21,994 bases of DNA from a virus: positions 1 to 21,994 of IMG/VR virus record IMGVR_UViG_3300008450_000523, one strand, 5' to 3'. Position 1 is the stretch's first letter. The number at the start of each line of letters is the position of its first letter. Made by a program: the position numbers and the translations under genes. This document shows positions 3,170-21,994 of the stretch, piece after piece. The notes under the pieces were generated by a model that worked only from the letters and a program-made list of their open reading frames with translations, was not told where the DNA came from and ran no database searches.

Positions 3170-3715
3170 ATGCCGGTTCCAAATACATTTGCCAGCGCCA
3201 CGACTTCGATTCCGTTGGCGCAACTGGATGCAAACTTTGCTACGCCTATTACGCTTGGAAATACGGTAATTCAGCTTGGAAATACAGTTTCAACAATAGG
3301 CAACATAACGCTGTCAAACGTCACTATTAACGGCGGGGCGATTAGCGCGAATGTAGCTAATGCAACAACAGATAGCGCCAATGTAGTTGGCTATATGGGT
3401 ATCCCGCAGAACATCCAGAATGGAAGTTACAACGTCGTTCTTGGAGATTCTGGAAAACATATTTATCACCCCATTAACACGGCTGCTGCGGTTTACACTT
3501 TTCCAGCAAACTCAAACGTCGCATTCACGATTGGTTCGGCGGTAACCATCATTAATGGTTCAGCTAACAACATCACAATTTCTCTGACTAGCGACACGAT
3601 GTATTTGGCTGGAAACGGGGCAACTGGTAGCCGAACACTAACGCAGTTTGGTATTGCGACAGCAGTAAAAGTAACCAGCAACTCTTGGTTAATCTCAGGC
3701 ACAAATCTGATATGA
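3170..3715 (+). CDS. tail fibre / appendage protein
   Basis: A 181-residue protein. The N-terminus (FASATTSIPLAQLDANFATP, then repeated LGNTV) is a common phage tail-appendage module. The C-terminal 90 residues (NVVLGDSGKHIYHP, FPANSNVAFTIGSAVTIING, NSWLISGTNLI) match a beta-structured domain I recall at the ends of many phage fibre proteins. It begins one base after the preceding stop with a good ribosome site (AGTGAGGTT) and its stop overlaps the next start as ATGA. It probably forms part of the receptor-contact complex with the next gene. Exact location in the virion is inferred. Confidence 0.7.
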   Translation: MPVPNTFASATTSIPLAQLDANFATPITLGNTVIQLGNTVSTIGNITLSNVTINGGAISANVANATTDSANVVGYMGIPQNIQNGSYNVVLGDSGKHIYHPINTAAAVYTFPANSNVAFTIGSAVTIINGSANNITISLTSDTMYLAGNGATGSRTLTQFGIATAVKVTSNSWLISGTNLI

Positions 3716-5652
3716 CAGGAATTCTACAAGCGTTGTTGTCTTGTTTTGGGGGCCAAGCTACTCCTGGGCCTTCTTACGTTGAAGACGTATTTTCGACGTA
3801 TTTATATACGGGAAACGGATCAACACAAACGATTGATAACGGAATGGACTTGTCTGGATCGGGCGGTATGGTCTGGATCAAAAGTCGATCAGCGGCTACT
3901 GACCATGCTTTATACGATACTGCGCGGGGTGCAACATTTGATTTGGTATCCAATTCTTCCGCAGCGCAAACAACACAAGTAAACGGTCTTACTTCTTTCA
4001 ATTTCAACGGGTTTAGTATTGGTTCTCTAGCCAAACTAAATACAAGTAGCGCAAATTATGCGTCGTGGACTTTTGAAAAAAAAGATAAGTTTTTTGACGT
4101 AAGAGCTGTTTCGCATACGAATGGCACGGCAACAGATGTTGATTTATCAAACCTTGGCACGTTAGGCTCGGTAATTTTCAAAGATACCGGTAGCGGTAAC
4201 TGGTTTGTATGGCATCGGTCATTGAGCGGCAGTAACAAGTTGATATTAAATTCAGCTGATAACCAAGCAAGTTTTACAACATTTAACGTATCTGGTACGA
4301 CGGTCACAATTTCATCTGCCGCAACTACTGGTACAAAATTGATTTATGCGTTTGCTCATGACGCAGGTGGATTTGGTGATTTTGCCGCTGACAATGTTAT
4401 CAGTTGCGGAACTTATCTTGGAAGCAATCATAGAGCGCAAGAAGTTGTTCAGCTTGGGTATGAACCGCAGTGGGTTTTAATTAAAAATATTACAACGAGC
4501 GCAACTCAATGGGTGGTCGTTGACAATATGCGCGGGATGGCAAGAACGGGGCCAAATTCGTGGCTTGCTCCTAATACTGCTAATGTTGAAACAACGACTG
4601 CTGCTGATAGGGTTGTTGCTTCCGCGACTGGATTCTTTTTTGATGGGCCACAACAGCCTATCAATGAAGCTGGATCAACTTTTGTTTACATTGCGATTCG
4701 TCGTGGGCCAATGAGAGTTCCCGTAAGTGGAACGAATGTTCTTCAGTTGTCTGCAAGAACTGGTACTGGGGCAAATGCAACTGTTTCAGGCGGCTCCTCA
4801 ATTGACGATTTGGTTATTATAAAAAATAGGGGTGCGTCAGTCATTCCTTTGTGGGTTCCTAGACTTGTTGGAATTAACTATCTTGCAAGTAGCGCAACAA
4901 CCGCAGAAACTGCTGCCGGAGCAACAATTTTACAATCTAATCCTTGGGATGTAATGGATGGGGTTAAAGTTGGAACAACTTCAACTATTGTCAACGCATC
5001 AGCAAATACCTACATTAATTACTTGTTTACCCGCGCACCTTATTTCTTTGATGTTGTGTGCTACACGGGAACTGGCACAAACACCACACAAGCGCACAAT
5101 TTAGGAGTTGCTCCAGATTTAATGATTGTAAAAGCAAGATCGGCTATAGGTGGTTGGAATGTGTACTCATCGGCTTTAACAAATACGCAATATATTTTCC
5201 TTGATAGCACAGCAGGGAGAGTTAGTGGCGCGACTACCCGCTGGAATAGCACCAGCCCAACCGCAAGCGTATTTAGCCTTGGTACTTCAAGTGAGGTTAA
5301 TGGGAGTGGTACTACCTACGTTGCTTACCTTTTTGGAACTATTGGAGGCGTTTCAAAATCAGGTGGTTATACGGGAACAGGCGCGGCACAAGTTATTGAT
5401 TGCGGATTTACCACTGGCGCAAGATTTGTAATGATAAAAAGAACAGATGCTATTGGTGGTTGGTATGTCTGGGATAGCGCTCGAGGAATTGCTGTTGGTA
5501 ATGATCCATTCTTCTTTATGGATAGTCCAGCATCAGAAAACACATCCACTGATTACATCAATCCGGCAAGTTCGGGTTTTGAGATTTCCAGTACAGCACC
5601 AATAGCAATTAATGCTTCTGGAGGTTCATATCTTTTCTTAGCTATTGCGTAG
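3712..5652 (+). CDS. tail fibre protein with tandem DUF7483-like modules
   Basis: A 646-residue beta-rich protein starting at the ATG that overlaps the previous TGA (3713-3715); an upstream in-frame TTG at 3685 is less likely. Modules with the pattern YTGxGxxQxIDxG then (V/M)(W/M)IK(S/A/R)R begin near residues 32, 447 and 550, with a divergent unit near 233 (VVQLGYEPQWVLIKN). Shared elements include GGMVWIKSRSAATDHALYD, APDLMIVKARSAIGGWNVY and ARFVMIKRTDAIGGWYVWD. This pattern resembles the DUF7483 repeat of phage tail proteins, probably a lectin-like beta sandwich. It is followed by a tail-assembly-chaperone-like gene, which supports a fibre role and receptor or surface glycan binding. The ligand is unknown. 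Confidence 0.7.
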   Translation: MTGILQALLSCFGGQATPGPSYVEDVFSTYLYTGNGSTQTIDNGMDLSGSGGMVWIKSRSAATDHALYDTARGATFDLVSNSSAAQTTQVNGLTSFNFNGFSIGSLAKLNTSSANYASWTFEKKDKFFDVRAVSHTNGTATDVDLSNLGTLGSVIFKDTGSGNWFVWHRSLSGSNKLILNSADNQASFTTFNVSGTTVTISSAATTGTKLIYAFAHDAGGFGDFAADNVISCGTYLGSNHRAQEVVQLGYEPQWVLIKNITTSATQWVVVDNMRGMARTGPNSWLAPNTANVETTTAADRVVASATGFFFDGPQQPINEAGSTFVYIAIRRGPMRVPVSGTNVLQLSARTGTGANATVSGGSSIDDLVIIKNRGASVIPLWVPRLVGINYLASSATTAETAAGATILQSNPWDVMDGVKVGTTSTIVNASANTYINYLFTRAPYFFDVVCYTGTGTNTTQAHNLGVAPDLMIVKARSAIGGWNVYSSALTNTQYIFLDSTAGRVSGATTRWNSTSPTASVFSLGTSSEVNGSGTTYVAYLFGTIGGVSKSGGYTGTGAAQVIDCGFTTGARFVMIKRTDAIGGWYVWDSARGIAVGNDPFFFMDSPASENTSTDYINPASSGFEISSTAPIAINASGGSYLFLAIA

Positions 5653-7416: not shown

Positions 7417-10008
7417 ATGGCTACTAATCCTACCGTCGTAAATCCTCGCGCTGGCATCTCAATGTCACCACAGCAGCACGTTGAGTATTTATTCCTGCGC
7501 GATCTCAACAGAAAAGCTGATGAGGCTGGCAAGCAGTTTTGGACAGAAAGGGCTATGCAGGTTCCTCCTGCTCAACTTAATGCAGAATTTCGCGCCGCCG
7601 CAAAAACAGAAAATCCCAAAGCGGGAAGTCTTCCAACAAGAGCATCAGGAATAACGCTGCCTGGCGATCCTGGCTACCAAGAATACAGAAATAAAAGTTT
7701 CTTTGAAATGGTAGCGCCGTTTGTTATTCCCGTTGTTGCGGTTGTTGCGCCTCAGTTTTTGCCTGCTATTGGTAAGGCTCTAGGCGCTACAGGTGCTGCG
7801 GCAACGGCTGTTGGCGCTGGTGTTGTTAATGCTGGAATTACTGCTGGATTAGGCGGTTCTCCAGAAGATATCGTCAAAGCAGGTCTTGCTGCTGGAGGCG
7901 GTATGTATGCCGGTTCAGTAGTTGGTGAAGCTGTTAAGGGCGCTCAACAAGCTGGAACTCTTAGCGGAACTTTAGGTGGTAATGCTGCATTACCTGCGGT
8001 TGCTGGAAGTGCTGTTGGCGCTGGTACTGGCACGCTGATTCAAACGGGCGATCCTGGAAAAGCAGGATTGGCTGCATTAGGTGCTGGCGCTGGTCAGGCC
8101 ATTGGTGGAGCAGCGCTTGATGTGCTGCCAGATGATGCCAATCTTACGCTTAAATCAGGTTTAGCTTCAGCGGCTGGTGGCGCTACCGAGGCCGCTGTCA
8201 CAGGCCAAGATGTTGGGGCAAGCGCACTCGTTAGCGGTTTGGCTGGCGCTGGTCAGGATTACATCACCGAACAAAAGTTAAAAGCGGAACAGGCAAAACA
8301 ACAAATTTCTGGTGACATTCTCAAAGCATTTACCAATCCAGCAAATAAAGTTGATGTTGCTTTTGCAGGGCCAATAACGGCTGACGAAATCAATCAGTTA
8401 GCCCGTAACGCTTCCAGAGAATTGATTGATACCTGGAGGGCTAGAGCAGCAGCCGATCCAACTTTTGCAAAAGAATTAGCCAAACCAGAAAATCTTAATG
8501 CAATTAGAAATGCTGGCTTAGTAGAACTTGCAACTGCGGTGACTTCTTTGACCTCTGTTGCCGCTGGTGGTGCTGGAGCAACCGCCTTGGCTACTGGTTT
8601 GTTGGCTGTGCCTGCCGCTGAAGCAGTAAGACGCGCAACGCAAGAAAACTCTATGCTTGGCGCTATGTCGGGCGATACATCATTTGCAAGCGCTCTAATT
8701 GATCAGGCATTAAGCACCCCAAATAATACTTTAACCACTACAGACACAACGCCTACATTGCCAGAAGTCGTTGTAGAAGCGCCTCGACTTTCAGACACTC
8801 CCCAAACTGCCGATATTTTGCGAGTGTCAAAAATTTTGCAAATATCGCCGGAAGAAGCGGCAATATTAAGTGAGAGAAATTCAACTCTATTTAATTATTT
8901 TACTGGAAAAGAAGGCGCTCCCACGCCCCCAGAGATAGACACATTACCATTACGCGAACGCGCAGCTATTGAAAGTGCTAATCGATCAGGTCAGCCCATA
9001 AGTTCTTTGCAGGATTTTAATGTGGTTATTACTGGTCAAACGCCACCGACAACTCCTGGCGTACAGACAGCAATACCGACAAATGAACAACAGATATTGG
9101 AATTGACTGGGATTGTTCCAAAAATTCGCACAAATTTATCCAACGCTCCCTCAGGTCAACAAGACCAAATTCAGGCGCTTTACGACCAATTCTTAAATCG
9201 TGAAGCGGATCAAGCCGGAAGACAGTTTTGGGAGCAACGCGCAACCCAAGTTAGCGCTGATCAATTACAAAGAGAGTTTCAAGAGGCCGCAAGACAAGAA
9301 CAAGCCTCCGCCCAGACACAAGCCGATACAAAGACCCAAACAGATACAAGAACGCAAACTGGAAACCAGACCGACCCACAAACGCAGGGAGATACAAAAA
9401 CACAAACGGATGCGGGTACGCAGTCGGACACAAAAACGCAAACAGACGCAAGTACGCAGTCAGATACAAAAACGCAAACCGGTACGAGTACACAAACTGG
9501 TACGAGTACACAATCCGGCACAAATACACAAACAAATACGCCGACAACATCTGGCAGCACAACCGGAGAAAGCACCGGCGGCCCCACGACAGGTGGCGTT
9601 ACTCCGACCATTACTGATACAGATAGAGAAATTATTAACTTGACAGGTATTGACGGTGGAGGCACAACGGTAACTGGCCCAACTGAGCCTACTAAAATCG
9701 ATGATACTAAAATTGATGATACTAAAATCGATGATACTGAAATTACGTCAACTGAAACACCAATAATTAAGAAAAAGAAAAAGAAAAAGGTTATACGCAG
9801 ACCAGCAGTTGAAACTAAAACAGTTCCACTACAAACATTATTGGGAGCGCCGCTTATGATGCCTGGTTCAAGCGCATTAGCCCAAGCGCTGAGTGTAGGT
9901 GACGCTGGCGGTTCTTATTTGGATAAGAAAGGTCAAAGACGCCAACCCGTTTGGAACGTCGAATCGTTGAAACTAACAGATGAATTAGGGGGCAGTGGCT
10001 ATGACTAA
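7417..10008 (+). CDS. large internal virion-type protein with two DUF4214-like modules
   Basis: An 863-residue protein with AAGGA 6-10 bases before ATG 7417. Residues 18-63 and about 583-628 are two copies of a DUF4214-like helix pair: FLRDLNRKADEAGKQFW and YDQFLNREADQAGRQFW, each followed by QV and a second helix. Between them are glycine and alanine-rich hydrophobic stretches (residues about 95-280; VIPVVAVVAPQFLPAIG is the most membrane-like) and helices. After the second module comes a Thr-Gln repeat (about 632-708), three copies of TKIDD, seven lysines in a row, and a C-terminal MMPGSSALAQAL. Position next to other Gln and Ala-rich proteins suggests an ejected internal protein. DUF4214 is otherwise known from surface-associated proteins. 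The function is inferred. Confidence 0.65.
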   Translation: MATNPTVVNPRAGISMSPQQHVEYLFLRDLNRKADEAGKQFWTERAMQVPPAQLNAEFRAAAKTENPKAGSLPTRASGITLPGDPGYQEYRNKSFFEMVAPFVIPVVAVVAPQFLPAIGKALGATGAAATAVGAGVVNAGITAGLGGSPEDIVKAGLAAGGGMYAGSVVGEAVKGAQQAGTLSGTLGGNAALPAVAGSAVGAGTGTLIQTGDPGKAGLAALGAGAGQAIGGAALDVLPDDANLTLKSGLASAAGGATEAAVTGQDVGASALVSGLAGAGQDYITEQKLKAEQAKQQISGDILKAFTNPANKVDVAFAGPITADEINQLARNASRELIDTWRARAAADPTFAKELAKPENLNAIRNAGLVELATAVTSLTSVAAGGAGATALATGLLAVPAAEAVRRATQENSMLGAMSGDTSFASALIDQALSTPNNTLTTTDTTPTLPEVVVEAPRLSDTPQTADILRVSKILQISPEEAAILSERNSTLFNYFTGKEGAPTPPEIDTLPLRERAAIESANRSGQPISSLQDFNVVITGQTPPTTPGVQTAIPTNEQQILELTGIVPKIRTNLSNAPSGQQDQIQALYDQFLNREADQAGRQFWEQRATQVSADQLQREFQEAARQEQASAQTQADTKTQTDTRTQTGNQTDPQTQGDTKTQTDAGTQSDTKTQTDASTQSDTKTQTGTSTQTGTSTQSGTNTQTNTPTTSGSTTGESTGGPTTGGVTPTITDTDREIINLTGIDGGGTTVTGPTEPTKIDDTKIDDTKIDDTEITSTETPIIKKKKKKKVIRRPAVETKTVPLQTLLGAPLMMPGSSALAQALSVGDAGGSYLDKKGQRRQPVWNVESLKLTDELGGSGYD
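9312..9540 (+). repeat. Thr-Gln-rich low-complexity repeat (TQ-D/G units)
   Basis: About 76 codons made of units of 4-6 residues such as TQTDTK, TQSDTK, TQTGTS with ACGCAAAC/ACACAAAC DNA cores. Long open frames in several other frames here arise from this low complexity and are not genes. It probably forms an extended linker. Copy number may vary between relatives. Confidence 0.85.
9691..9735 (+). repeat. three tandem 15-bp repeats (TKIDD)
   Basis: Units 9691-9705, 9706-9720 and 9721-9735 read ACTAAAATCGATGAT with one T/C change in the middle copy. They code for TKIDD three times, then a fourth divergent unit TEIT. They look like recent slippage duplication. Confidence 0.9.
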
Positions 10009-16720: not shown

Positions 16721-17114
16721 GAAAGAAGTTTTAGACCCTTCTGGCTTCCCTATTGAAATGGATAGGCCAGTGGTCTTTGAAGAAGATGACTTCGAGAATC
16801 CGCATACTGAACTTTCCATTACCGAATCAGCAGAGGATTTAGGATTGCCTGGTGGCGGTTTTTATAACGTGCCTAGCATCTATGGCGGTGTGATCTACGA
16901 TCCAAAGACACAGTTCGATATCATCAAGCAAAACGTCCAGAAGCAAGCGCAAACAGGATTCCGTTTCCCTAACTTTCCATCTATAGAGGAAGCAGAGAAA
17001 GCCGCGCAAGCCCGTAGCGCCTATTTCAATCAGATCAAAGCAGATATGCTGCGCCAAGCAGTAGAAAAACGTCGGCAAGAACTCTTACTTCAAATGATGA
17101 AGATAGGACAATGA
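16713..17114 (+). CDS. acidic phage protein of unknown function (133 aa)
   Basis: Starts at TTG 16713, overlapping the endolysin by 8 bases, with GAGGAG at 16701-16706; no good ATG fits near. The 133-residue product has an acidic, disordered N-terminus (FEEDDFENPHTELSITESAE), a Gly-Pro-rich middle (GLPGGGFYNVPSIYGGVIYD), and a C-terminal helix (SIEEAEKAAQARSAYFNQIK). The segment FPNFPSIEEAEKAAQARS recalls short phage proteins with the same tail, often near lysis or virion genes. Function unknown. The unusual start may reduce expression. Confidence 0.6.
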   Translation: MSEKEVLDPSGFPIEMDRPVVFEEDDFENPHTELSITESAEDLGLPGGGFYNVPSIYGGVIYDPKTQFDIIKQNVQKQAQTGFRFPNFPSIEEAEKAAQARSAYFNQIKADMLRQAVEKRRQELLLQMMKIGQ

Positions 17115-17347
17115 TGTCTAAAACTAACGTAAAGCTATCGGTAGGTAGGGGTGAGAAGCTGTCAGTTAAGGCTGGCGGTGGACTGACTGCCAAAGGCAGA
17201 GCCAAGTACAACCGTGCGACCGGCAGCAACCTACAAGCCCCGACCAAAGATACCTCTAACCCACGTCACAAGTCTTTTTGCGCCCGTAGCCGCAACTGGA
17301 CAGGTGATCGTGGCAAAGCAGCCAGAAAGCGTTGGGGTTGTCGTTGA
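17111..17347 (+). CDS. small basic DUF6321-like protein
   Basis: A 78-residue basic protein (the ATG at 17111 or the next at 17114). Residues 23-43 have GGLTAKGRAKYNRATGSNL, and the C-terminus has SFCARSRNW and KAARKRWGC; I recall this as a DUF6321-type pattern in phages. C57 and C77 are the only cysteines I see, so a zinc site would need a partner. It overlaps its neighbours on both sides (17111-17114, and TTGA at 17344-17347). Function unknown; nucleic-acid binding is plausible. Confidence 0.6.
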   Translation: MMSKTNVKLSVGRGEKLSVKAGGGLTAKGRAKYNRATGSNLQAPTKDTSNPRHKSFCARSRNWTGDRGKAARKRWGCR

Positions 17348-17856
17348 GCCATCCAGCACAAATTGAATTCGTTGCCAGCCTCAAGTCACAGTTCCCTGAT
17401 TACTTTGTTCGTAAGAACGTCCTGGAAGTTGGCAGCCTAAACATCAATGGTTCAATACGTCCATTTTTTGAGCAATGTATCTATGTTGGCGTTGATCTTG
17501 GCGCAGGAACCGATGTTGATGTGGTGGCTAGAGGAGAAGACCTCACCTATGCTGATGGCAGTTTTGATGTTGTTGCTAGCTGTGAGTGCTTTGAGCATAA
17601 TCCTGCTTGGCTGAAAACCTTTGCCAATATGATCAGGATGTCATCCGGCCTGGTCTTCTTTAGCTGCGCGACCACAGGCAGGGCAGAGCATGGCACACGC
17701 CGCACCAGTCCACATGATGCGCCATTCTGCGGTGACTACTACCGCAACCTAACCGAGCAAGACTTTCGAGAAGCGTTTGACCTGTCAGAATTCCGACAGT
17801 ATGCTTTTACCACTAACGATCAGGCGCACGACCTTTACTTTTGGGGTGTCAAATGA
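17344..17856 (+). CDS. SAM-dependent methyltransferase-like protein (type 11-like)
   Basis: About 170 residues when started at TTG 17344, which overlaps the previous stop as TTGA and gives the likely MSHPAQ N-terminus; TTGs at 17332 and 17338 are alternatives, and no early ATG exists. The class I fold signature is present: motif I as VLEVGSLNING (26-36), acidic D51 after strand 2 (YVGVDLG), and strand 4 SFDVVASCECFEH. This is shorter than usual, with a minimal C-terminus (YYRNLTEQDFREAF, DLYFWGVK). Substrate is unknown: DNA, protein, or small molecule. It lies between two tiny basic proteins in the late operon rather than in the early block. Confidence 0.75.
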   Translation: MSHPAQIEFVASLKSQFPDYFVRKNVLEVGSLNINGSIRPFFEQCIYVGVDLGAGTDVDVVARGEDLTYADGSFDVVASCECFEHNPAWLKTFANMIRMSSGLVFFSCATTGRAEHGTRRTSPHDAPFCGDYYRNLTEQDFREAFDLSEFRQYAFTTNDQAHDLYFWGVK

Positions 17857-19049: not shown

Positions 19050-19497
19050 TTTTCCAGACCTTTCCGTTTCTGATGTTGTTTATTGTTTGGCGGCAAACAC
19101 TAAATTCAATAGAAATTTCTGAGTCCGAAAGCCCTGTTGAAAACAAGTATTTGATGTCTTTAACATCTTCTTTGTTTAGTTTAGACATAGGGTTGCGCTC
19201 CCCTTTTGTGCTTCGCCCTTTCCTTGCCATATCCTCAAGATTTTGCTTTTGAGTTCCAAGAAATAAGTGGGCTGGATTGACGCAATACACATTGTCGCAG
19301 GCATGGCAAACGTGCATATCTTTTGGTATTTCTCCAATGAATGCTTCGTATGATGCGCGATGAGCGTAATGTTTACGGTTGTTACTAATGATTTGACCGT
19401 AACCCCTAACGGTTGTAGTTCCCATCCATACCCAACAACCACCTTCAGGTATGCGCTCTACCTTATTTTCTATTCTTTCTTTGGTAATTGGATTCAT
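19042..19497 (-). CDS. HNH homing endonuclease (HNH_3 with C-terminal HTH)
   Basis: A 151-residue protein. Residues 45-85 carry the HNH_3 core: AHRASYEAFIG, then HVCHACDNVYCVNPAHLFLG, with H65, N74 and H77 as catalytic-type residues and C64, C67 and C72 as metal-type cysteines. A C-terminal 45 residues (SKLNKEDVKDIKYLFS, then DSEISIEFSVCRQTINNIRN) look like a NUMOD-type helix-turn-helix for DNA contact. The start (WVWMGTTTVRGYGQI) matches the family N-terminus. It is more AT-rich than flanking genes and sits between two unrelated genes by an ATGA overlap upstream and 8-base overlap downstream. Likely a free-standing selfish gene. Confidence 0.82.
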   Translation of the reverse strand: MNPITKERIENKVERIPEGGCWVWMGTTTVRGYGQIISNNRKHYAHRASYEAFIGEIPKDMHVCHACDNVYCVNPAHLFLGTQKQNLEDMARKGRSTKGERNPMSKLNKEDVKDIKYLFSTGLSDSEISIEFSVCRQTINNIRNGKVWKNV

Positions 19498-19700
19498 ATT
19501 GTCATCCTATAAAACCACTTGTCATTACGCCGCTGACAGTCGATCTGATAACCGTTCTGCCGCAACTCCGAGATGATGCTATTAACTGCACAAACACCTG
19601 CCCTCTGGATGATCTCCAGGGTAGTAAACTCACCACCGCCTGACAGCAGCTTAAACACACGCTGCAAGCGATCAGACCTAGTTAGGTTCGCTGCGTTCAT
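19494..19700 (-). CDS. small winged-helix / HTH_55-like protein
   Basis: A 68-residue protein joined by ATGA overlaps at both ends. It begins with NLTRSDRLQRVFKLLSGG and continues with FTTLEIIQRAGVCAVNSIIS, then ELRQNGYQIDCQRRNDKWF; this fits the HTH_55-type winged helix common in early phage operons. Probably a small DNA-binding protein. It lies between the nuclease-like gene and the HNH insertion. No target is visible. Confidence 0.65.
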   Translation of the reverse strand: MNAANLTRSDRLQRVFKLLSGGGEFTTLEIIQRAGVCAVNSIISELRQNGYQIDCQRRNDKWFYRMTI

Positions 19701-20017
19701 GAAATATCCTCCACTCTCAAAACGTATCTGCCTTTGACATTCTTGCGCCAGCCGTGAACTTCAACTCGAATACCGGCATCTCTGACCAGCGCAATCGTGG
19801 GTGATTCTTGAATCTTCTTGATCCTCTCTGCGACACCTGTGCTCGTCACCTGAACGGCTAAGACTTCGTTCTTGCGAATAGCTAGGATGTCGCACCATCC
19901 CCAAAGGTCTTGACGTATCTTTGACCAAGGATTCCACTTCTCTACTATCGCGCAGAAGTAGCCCTGTTCTCGCAGATACTCAAGACTGCGTTGGGTTGGC
20001 GTTTTAGAGGAAGCCAT
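19697..20017 (-). CDS. small PD-(D/E)XK-fold-like protein
   Basis: A 106-residue protein. It opens with TPTQRSLEYLREQGYFCAIV, then KIRQDLWGWCDILAIRKNEV, then LAVQVTSTGVAERIKKI; this is the strand order of small PD-(D/E)XK nuclease-like phage proteins, with D in CDILAI and Q-V-T where E-X-K is expected. The C-terminus has RVEVHGWRKNVKGRYVLR. The missing ExK lysine and acid make catalysis uncertain. It sits next to recombination genes, so repair, resolution or DNA-binding are possible. TAATG overlap with the next upstream gene. Confidence 0.55.
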   Translation of the reverse strand: MASSKTPTQRSLEYLREQGYFCAIVEKWNPWSKIRQDLWGWCDILAIRKNEVLAVQVTSTGVAERIKKIQESPTIALVRDAGIRVEVHGWRKNVKGRYVLRVEDIS

Positions 20018-20319
20018 TAGAACGGTACTTCGTCATCCTTGAATGGGTCATACTCTCTAGGCTTCTTCAATGTTGCCGAGGGCGCTTCCATTGGTGGCTT
20101 GCGGTAATTAGGATCGGGTGTCCAGTTATCCTGCGCTAGGCTGATCAGTTCACCGATTCTGGTGGCTTTCTTCCAAGCAGCGATCTTGATTTGCTCACCC
20201 GCCTTAACATCTCGGTCTACAGTGATCACGCCCTTGTAGTCAGGCTGTGCTGATCCTGGCGCTTTCTTATCGTTCTGAAAGAGTACGCCCTTGCCTGGTT
20301 CTGATTGATGCTGTTTCAT
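20017..20319 (-). CDS. SSB-like protein with DUF736-like body and acidic tip
   Basis: A 100-residue protein. Residues 12-65 (VLFQNDKKAPGSAQPDYKG, then VDRDVKAGEQIKIAAWKK) recall DUF736-like proteins and OB-fold-like strand order. The C-terminus DPFKDDEVPF ends in the D-D-x-(I/V)-P-F pattern of bacterial SSB tips, which recruit replication and repair partners. The middle linker is proline-rich. Neighbours are a RecT-like gene (ATGA overlap) and a nuclease-like gene (TAATG), so a single-stranded DNA-binding role is likely. The body is shorter than E. coli SSB. The tip motif is seen directly; ssDNA binding is inferred. Confidence 0.6.
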   Translation of the reverse strand: MKQHQSEPGKGVLFQNDKKAPGSAQPDYKGVITVDRDVKAGEQIKIAAWKKATRIGELISLAQDNWTPDPNYRKPPMEAPSATLKKPREYDPFKDDEVPF

Positions 20320-21125
20320 ACTTCCTCCAAGGTAGTGACTGCTGCCAAGACTTTGGTCTTTGCTGTCGGTGTCATGTTTTCAATAACGTGCTGGTTTGCC
20401 TTCTTGAAAGCTTTGAGTTTCTCTAGCTTCTGCTTGTCATCAAGCTTTCCTGCTTTTACCTTTGAAATCATTTGGTAGAAAATAGTCTCCCAAGCGTCTA
20501 AGTTCTCCGCCAAGTCGTATGGTTCCTCTTGACCTGGTATGTACAGAGGCAAAAAATCTTCACCTACGGTCTTAGCTGACTTAATCTCGTCAACGATGTC
20601 TGCCGCACCCATGTCTTTGATCTCTGGCGTGACAACCTTTGCCGGTTTATCGTCAAAGTCTTGGACTTCTTCGACGCTATAGGTTCCAACCACACAGCCT
20701 GGATACACTGCTCTGATTCCTTCTGAGATGCAGCGCGATCTAAGCATTGCGCGAGGATACTTATGCCATCCCGAACTAGGCTTAACCAAACCAATATGCT
20801 TTGCCTGATCGATAGTCCAAGTAACAGTAATAGACCCGCCACTAGGATGACTAAAAATTCCAGAAACTCGTTCATCTGTGTAGTCCTCCCATTGAACTTT
20901 TCCACCAGCGCCCTGAAACCTTGCCAGCATTGCGTCAGCTTTTAGTGCTGGTCTGCCCTGAATGATGTGATAGTCACGCGCAGCTATTGCAGGGTGCTGG
21001 CCTTCTGCTTGAGCGATCAGCATTAGCGCCATAGCTTCGTCTGAAGTCTTGACACCAAACAAACCTGACTTAGCCACAGCTAACGCCATGCGCTCTATGT
21101 CTTGAACTGGTACTAAGTTACTCAT
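20316..21125 (-). CDS. RecT-like single-strand annealing protein
   Basis: A 269-residue protein. The N-terminal 170 residues show DIERMALAVAKSGLFGVKT, then AMALMLIAQAEGQHPAIAAR, DYHIIQGRPALKADAML, and KYPRAMLRSRCISEGIRAVY, a pattern I recall from phage RecT-like recombinases. The C-terminal 90 residues are acidic and helical and likely contact partners. It is adjacent to the YqaJ-like exonuclease fragment and the SSB-like gene, a usual trio in phage recombination. It starts with a strong AGGAGATGAG ribosome site and overlaps the upstream 104-aa gene by 8 bases. Family by pattern only. Confidence 0.7.
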   Translation of the reverse strand: MSNLVPVQDIERMALAVAKSGLFGVKTSDEAMALMLIAQAEGQHPAIAARDYHIIQGRPALKADAMLARFQGAGGKVQWEDYTDERVSGIFSHPSGGSITVTWTIDQAKHIGLVKPSSGWHKYPRAMLRSRCISEGIRAVYPGCVVGTYSVEEVQDFDDKPAKVVTPEIKDMGAADIVDEIKSAKTVGEDFLPLYIPGQEEPYDLAENLDAWETIFYQMISKVKAGKLDDKQKLEKLKAFKKANQHVIENMTPTAKTKVLAAVTTLEEV

Positions 21126-21432
21126 TTCTCATCTCCTCAGTATCTCCGCCATAAGCATCAATAAACATTTCCATATCTACTTCTAAAATCTGCAACATGA
21201 TTGTGAAAGATCGAGCAACATCGAAATCGCTTTCGGCAACCACGCCATCTAAAATTTTTTCTTTCCAGTCAGACAAATCAATATCGCCCCACATGATCAT
21301 CAGTCTTTTTAGACCAATCACGGCTTCTTGAAATTGTTTGATGGTTTTGTTGGCAAGTCGCTCGTTCATTTCCCTTGTTTGTTTTGCGTACTTTTCATGT
21401 AGTTCTTTACGCATTTTTTCTATGTCATCCAT
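21118..21432 (-). CDS. unknown helical protein between exonuclease and RecT genes
   Basis: A 104-residue charged helical protein (KMRKELHEKYAKQTREMNER, then QEAVIGLKRLMIMWGDIDLS) ending in an acidic DAYGGDTEEMRNE. It begins 9 bases after the exonuclease stop with AAGGAGATGAG directly before the ATG. It overlaps the RecT-like gene by 8 bases. It is more AT-rich than either neighbour, which may mean a separate origin. Perhaps an exonuclease or RecT partner; no family recognised. Confidence 0.55.
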   Translation of the reverse strand: MDDIEKMRKELHEKYAKQTREMNERLANKTIKQFQEAVIGLKRLMIMWGDIDLSDWKEKILDGVVAESDFDVARSFTIMLQILEVDMEMFIDAYGGDTEEMRNE

Positions 21433-21441
21433 CTCATCTCC

Positions 21442-21994
21442 TTATTTAAGTAGGAATCTGCGACTGCCTGGGGTTTCCACGACAAACTTCTCATAGATGT
21501 CCGGCATGGCTTGCTGGAATAGCTTTGCGTCAAACTTGCTGGAACTTTTAGCGGTGCGCCAGGTTGCTAGGGTTCTGCCAGCCAAATCCGTCAGCGTAGA
21601 CCTGTCTGTCATGTAGCCCCTGATAGCGACCTCAAGGGCTTCTGACTGATCCTCTAGTTCCTTGATCTTGGCCTTGTAAGCTTTCAGTGCTTCACAGGCT
21701 TTCTCGACAGCGCCAGACGCGACGATGGTGGCTTCTGTTGACTCTGGATAGATCAGCTTGACTGACTCCAGGCTGTCAGGTTCTGGCGGGGTATTGGTGG
21801 CTACCATGCCCCAAAGTTTTGCCATTTGCCTGATCAGGTCTTCTTTCTGTGCGTCAGTAATGGTGAAGTGATAGGTGCGGAATGCCTGACCGCCGAACAA
21901 GACCGCAAGGTATATTGACTCCACGTTATGTACGGCAGCTTCGTGTATGAGTTGCGCCATATCAGCAGCAGGAACCAGGTTTGTTTCTTCGTCG
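21442..21994 (-). CDS. YqaJ-type exonuclease, C-terminal part (runs off the window)
   Basis: The frame stays open through the right edge: the residues before the internal ATG at 21960 read DEETNLVPAAD, so that ATG is not the start. The segment VESIYLAVLFGGQAFRTYHF, then TPPEPDSLESVKLIYPEST, resembles the last part of YqaJ viral recombinase domains (the LAVLFGG strand). The remaining 100 residues are coiled coil (YKAKIKELEDQSEALEVAI) and the C-terminal cap with TLATWRTAKSSSKFDAKLF and TPGSRRFLLK, typical of phage YqaJ proteins. The catalytic PD-(D/E)XK residues lie outside the window. It pairs with the RecT-like gene for Red-type recombination. Confidence 0.65.
   Translation of the reverse strand, partial: DEETNLVPAADMAQLIHEAAVHNVESIYLAVLFGGQAFRTYHFTITDAQKEDLIRQMAKLWGMVATNTPPEPDSLESVKLIYPESTEATIVASGAVEKACEALKAYKAKIKELEDQSEALEVAIRGYMTDRSTLTDLAGRTLATWRTAKSSSKFDAKLFQQAMPDIYEKFVVETPGSRRFLLK

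Follow-up and report, generated by a model that had tools for sequence, protein, structure and literature searches.

The question raised by this locus is how an acidic C-terminal tip of the SSB type comes to stand on a 100-residue phage protein, and what such a protein does beside a RecT-like annealase and an exonuclease. An earlier note, made from the letters of the window alone (the window being the whole stretch of DNA analysed, 21,994 nucleotides), had read the ending as an SSB-type tip on a DUF736-like body and had suggested that the protein, imitating SSB, could act either in the service of the RecT/exonuclease pair or in competition for host SSB partners. The answer reached here is that the gene probably encodes the phage's own SSB, in which a small DUF736-like beta domain is joined by a flexible linker to an SSB-type tip, and which works with RecT and the exonuclease.

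The gene and its operon

The gene is a single ORF on the minus strand (window 20017-20319), for which a reading-frame check gave an ATG start and 100 codons followed by a stop. An SD-like sequence, TTGGAGGAAGT, sits ahead of the ATG. The stop of the RecT-like gene overlaps the start of the SSB-like gene by 4 bases (20316-20319), and base 20017 is common to the stop of the latter and to the ATG of the next (106-aa) ORF. The operon is tight and leftward, running from the RecE/YqaJ-like exonuclease through a 104-aa ORF, the RecT-like annealase, the SSB-like gene and the 106-aa ORF to a winged-helix protein. Its features, in this order, are as follows.

21442..21993, minus strand: RecE/YqaJ-like exonuclease, C-terminal part, cut by the window end (phrog_434, E 4.6e-34)
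21118..21432, minus strand: 104-aa ORF between exonuclease and RecT, with no confident family
20316..21125, minus strand: RecT-like ssDNA-annealing protein, 269 aa (phrog_561, E 6.3e-25; PF03837, E 0.0011, below cut-off)
20017..20319, minus strand: SSB-like gene, 100 aa, made up of body, linker and SSB-type tip (phrog_18154, E 1.3e-8)
20122..20319, minus strand: body, residues 1-66, net charge +3, a remote DUF736 relative with four predicted beta strands
20050..20121, minus strand: linker, residues 67-90, of low model confidence and presumed disordered, varying in length and sequence among relatives
20020..20049, minus strand: SSB-type acidic tip DPFKDDEVPF, residues 91-100, net charge -3
19697..20017, minus strand: 106-aa ORF sharing one base with the SSB-like stop, with no family match
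19494..19700, minus strand: winged-helix (HTH_39) protein, 68 aa, downstream in the operon (PF14090, E 4.8e-5)

The YqaJ domain is seen in the full-length exonuclease copy of a relative (G002). The 106-aa neighbour carries the pattern D..IL...VLAVQVTS, which looks nuclease-like by eye. Elsewhere in the window, positions 7417-10008 encode an 863-aa protein with a long low-complexity stretch of the TQTDTKTQ type.

Conservation of the C-terminal tip

Relatives were collected by IMG/VR scans seeded from the window protein, P0001 (48 loci; 80 of 136 matching loci), and from relatives (80 of 95 and 17 of 17 matching loci), many loci recurring between scans. A profile search over the collected loci gave 192 matching ORFs, of which 111 were distinct and 109 closed; the two left open at contig ends were excluded from the clusters. 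Poor conservation of the terminal Pro-Phe (PF), which the earlier note had named as the point that would tell against its claim, was not what was found: PF closes 71 of the 109 distinct closed relatives and, when clustering is done on the body alone, prevails in 17 of 23 clusters at 70% identity and in 12 of 16 at 50%, these counts being counts of related sequences and not of independent events. Of the remaining six clusters at 70% identity, two lack the tip; in the other four, the prevailing ends are LGF (a single large clade), DF, PW and PF extended by five further residues. Within the large clade (the L093-L142 group), NDPLGF replaces the tip, with the acids and the terminal Phe kept; the 28 LGF sequences come largely out of a search that was seeded within that clade.

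PF ends are few elsewhere. Among the 62 window ORFs of at least 50 aa, only two have one, namely the SSB-like protein and an ORF ending STPF, and such an end is found in 32 of the 3732 closed ORFs that these loci hold outside the family. At least two acids occur among the six preceding residues in 24 of these 32 ORFs, and 23 of the 24 are a single orthologous gene of the same phage lineage, with RDCPF, RDAPF or RDSPF as its ends. A short protein of that lineage, encoded upstream of the exonuclease (L191, 1825-2142), has a conserved RDCPF, RDAPF or RDSPF end; it is without a PHROG match, and its Pfam match is weak only.

A PF end arising by chance was rejected, PF being rare among other ORFs and frequent in the family. 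A constraint at the DNA level, exerted by the overlap with the next gene, would suit the base that the window stop shares with the following ATG, but the 121 rows with PF use four Pro codons (CCG, CCC, CCA and CCT), two Phe codons (TTC and TTT) and all three stops, so that the constraint on PF lies on the protein and not on the DNA. PF is also kept where the genes do not overlap, for example in L004, and either origin, chance or DNA constraint, is regarded as exceedingly improbable.

As to the kind of tip, the 25-residue tail of a Klebsiella phage relative aligns to the extreme C-terminus of E. coli SSB (E 5.3e-5), and its last 12 residues, EPPMDFDDDIPF, are identical to those of E. coli SSB (chain 1eqq). 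Taken together, the conservation of PF, the variation of its codons, the scarcity of PF ends elsewhere and this tail alignment mark the ending DPFKDDEVPF as a real and selected tip of the SSB type, as the earlier note had held; judged by sequence, it is a protein-level trait of a broad phage family.

An acidic tail may have another use than docking. In T7 gp2.5 and T4 gp32, it imitates DNA and thereby modulates the protein's own ssDNA binding, and the tail of the window protein could likewise act on the ssDNA binding of its own body, a reading with which the opposite net charges of body and tip agree, as do the variants EADFDF and DPLGF, which retain acid and terminal Phe. A pure mimic of DNA does not, however, need a conserved Pro-Phe end, and with PF the commonest end in most of the body clusters this use is unlikely; a docking tip is the reading preferred here.

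In phage MW202825 (L001), tandem copies of the body occur in overlapping frames, the first (3522-3770) tipless and ending KGNRNG, the second (3766-4002) ending DDDVPF; possibly, the two form a hetero-oligomer.

Affiliation of the body

The window protein has no match in Pfam, even with E allowed to rise to 1, hence none to PF00436 or PF05037, and the view that its body is unlike a standard SSB is borne out in that PF00436 is unmatched. Residues 9-64 match phrog_18154, named 'single strand DNA binding protein' (E 1.3e-8), a name that is an annotation and not a test; the same profile is matched by 26 of the 27 members of the relatives' alignment A2. Relatives annotated as ssDNA-binding include genes of Acinetobacter phage SH-Ab 15497, of Klebsiella phage K21lambda1 and of environmental phages.

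Kinship with DUF736 (PF05284) emerges at the level of the family, although P0001 alone stays under the Pfam threshold. The Pfam model of DUF736 picks up five of 27 relatives (best E 7.3e-4), the family profile A3 recovers two PF05284 proteins of a Paraburkholderia genome (E 4.1e-5 and 1.8e-4), and hhalign, set to compare the phage family with the DUF736 alignment, gives a probability of 95.7 and E 1e-8 over 47 columns. The motif NDK..(N)EK.PD(F/Y)..AWKK(T/A)S..G.(Y/F).S is common to the body and to DUF736. On this profile evidence, the body is a remote DUF736 relative, other than the canonical SSB domain, and the DUF736-like character proposed by the earlier note is upheld as remote homology.

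The DUF736 proteins of plasmids and ICEs share the body motif with the window protein but differ from it at the C-terminus, the tip being absent from the three true DUF736 proteins read. SSB-type tips do end two plasmid proteins of Caballeronia and Paraburkholderia (LEDEDIPF and EDDEIPF). These proteins (L090, 4770-5267; L091, 4788-5288) are 165-166 aa long; their C-terminal half is DUF736-like, and the N-terminal half looks similar to it by eye.

Predicted fold

The AlphaFold2 model of the body alone (72 residues, 34 sequences) has a pLDDT of 84.7 and a pTM of 0.68, the pLDDT of the first model being 71. Its predicted strands span residues 11-15, 28-33, 43-53 and 56-63, with no helix. In the first model, the linker and tail have the low confidence expected of a disordered tail. 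Searched against the PDB with Foldseek, the body-only model gave no match at E 0.001 or better, OB-fold chains appearing only at E near 1; with VIA-align against the PDB, there was no meaningful match (best Z 4.2). Two candidates were set aside as too weak to use, Borrelia Pur-alpha (Z 4.2 and 3.7) and, for the first model, the Enc34 SSB (Foldseek E 2). In BFVD, the first model had six matches at E 0.001 or better, all with uninformative names, and the next was the Vibrio phage JSF9 SSB at E 0.087. By sequence, the PDB gave no match to P0001, matches only at E above 0.3 to alignments A1 and A3, and none below 0.4 to a true DUF736 protein. The prediction is a four-stranded sheet without a significant PDB match, and therefore neither an OB fold nor a DNA-binding surface is established by it.

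Gene neighbourhood and other SSBs in relatives

Among 36 records profiled, phrog_561 RecT is present in 16 and the YqaJ domain (PF09588) in 26. Positions relative to the SSB-like gene were taken in 31 phage loci, leaving out W03-W06, the bacterial genome G038 and, on contig G037, the additional partial matches to RecT and YqaJ that lie at its far end. Of the 16 placed phage loci that have RecT, 15 carry it directly upstream on the same strand, no more than 402 bases away, and of the 25 that have YqaJ, 24 carry this domain upstream on the same strand within 2.2 kb, G032 being the sole exception in both respects. The association with a RecT/exonuclease pair, which had been suggested from the window, is in this way found both in its own operon and in the relatives. 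In a near relative, contig G006, the RecT-like match at 16978-17775 has one internal TGA, and relative G002 encodes a 207-aa protein (L192, 16445-17068) with a domain that is sliding-clamp-like by eye.

W03-W06 match neither phrog_561 nor PF09588 and keep the tip, which argues that RecT is not the tip's only partner. In W04-W06, the gene adjoins DNA polymerase I and adenylosuccinate synthetase-type genes; in keeping with their annotated genes, these three are taken to be Z-genome phages. Retention of the tip in phages of this type, together with the Klebsiella phage tail that copies an E. coli-type SSB end, favours a reading in which the tip chiefly recruits host SSB-binding proteins (replication restart, RecO/RecQ/RecG-type) to phage ssDNA and RecT is a mere neighbour. 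Against RecT as a mere neighbour stands the coupling of the gene to RecT in the window's own branch, and a chiefly host-directed tip, compatible with the main reading and not exclusive of it, is held to be quite possible, if short of probable. With a phage SSB that works with RecT, host SSB-binding proteins would by analogy probably dock on the tip too, since the tip resembles that of the host and relatives without phrog_561 RecT keep it.

The same phages bear on what the body binds. PF05284 is described solely as a protein of unknown function and a DNA-binding fold has not been recognised, so the body could be an adaptor that binds RecT or the exonuclease instead of DNA, the tip linking these to host factors. 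The body is found, however, without YqaJ or RecT in the Z-genome-type phages, and on plasmids, and the PHROG profiles of the family carry an ssDNA-binding name; an adaptor is judged improbable, and a body that binds ssDNA is preferred.

Canonical SSB (PF00436) was detected in 0 of 27 related records, most of which are contigs and maybe incomplete, with the control matching in 10 of 14 genomes. For phrog_378, the count was 0 of 24 related records, with two controls matched; for PF05037 and PF10991, it was 0 of 27 each, and as the controls gave no match either, absence is not implied. A decoy that draws SSB-binding partners away from the host protein, thereby disarming host repair or defence with no need of ssDNA binding, would account for a host-SSB-like tip on a short protein. 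Yet the body is conserved and has an ssDNA-binding family profile, the gene shares an operon with RecT and the exonuclease, a separate canonical SSB went undetected in the 27 records and there was no sign of host inhibition, all of which make a decoy very unlikely. Nothing was found here in favour of the competition for host SSB partners that the earlier note had envisaged, and its phrase 'imitates SSB' gives way to a different picture, the family profiles and the records lacking a detectable canonical SSB pointing to a working phage ssDNA-binding protein.

Proposed function and comparison with known systems

In the scheme proposed for the phage SSB, the RecE/YqaJ-like exonuclease would resect DNA ends, the DUF736-like body would cover the single strand thus laid bare, and RecT, expressed from the same operon, would be brought onto the covered DNA by docking on the DDEVPF tip, by which annealing would be stimulated. 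Protein-level conservation of the tip, family membership, operon position and the lack of a detectable canonical SSB in related records are supported directly here. Binding of ssDNA, docking of RecT and stimulation of annealing are expected by analogy with phage HK620. According to PMC5928155, the HK620 SSB (Pfam DUF669, tip NDYPPF) adjoins the Sak4 annealase and stimulates it; Sak4 needs the last six residues of this SSB in order to bind ssDNA coated with it, and most of the stimulation depends on the same residues. The likeness consists in a short phage SSB beside an annealase gene and in an SSB-type PF tip, the importance of which has been demonstrated for HK620. The two systems differ in their bodies, DUF669 (PF05037) being unmatched by P0001, and in their annealases, RecA-like in HK620 and RecT-type in the window. 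A link between RecT and such tips is also reported in PMC10711431, where the compatibility of RecT with a host is tied to the last seven residues of the host SSB.

With E. coli SSB, the window protein shares an acidic, PF-ending tip on a flexible linker; the E. coli protein has, however, a PF00436 body and 178 aa (chain 1eqq), whereas the window protein has 100 aa and no PF00436. Close in architecture are the putative phage ssDNA-binding proteins of phrog_18154 and phrog_7364, in which body and tip are the same as in the window protein. The genomic setting may nevertheless differ, the SH-Ab 15497 copy lying between DNA polymerase I and adenylosuccinate synthetase genes and the window copy in a RecE/RecT operon.

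Novelty and implications

Phage SSBs that bear a host-like tip and are encoded next to an annealase were known before, and some members of the present family already carry an ssDNA-binding annotation. The features that seem new are the DUF736-type body, the family-wide occurrence of the tip and the usual place of the gene behind exonuclease and RecT; a literature search, sparse in subscription journals, found no DUF736-like SSB described. A testable function is thereby offered for DUF736, which has none assigned and which PMC8627217 reports on all Mesorhizobium ICEs compared there. It is conceivable, though doubtful, that the DUF736 superfamily of conjugative elements and phages forms an unrecognised minimal class of ssDNA-binding proteins, maybe without a full OB fold, in which the tipped phage branch and the two-domain Paraburkholderia/Caballeronia plasmid branch plug into the SSB network and replace SSB in RecET-type recombination. 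The window would also provide an SSB/RecT pair that is both natural and compact, such as is relevant to recombineering host range as treated in PMC10711431. Lastly, phage SSBs are reported to trigger several anti-phage systems (PMC12904381), so that the unusual body of this one could cause it to be sensed differently.
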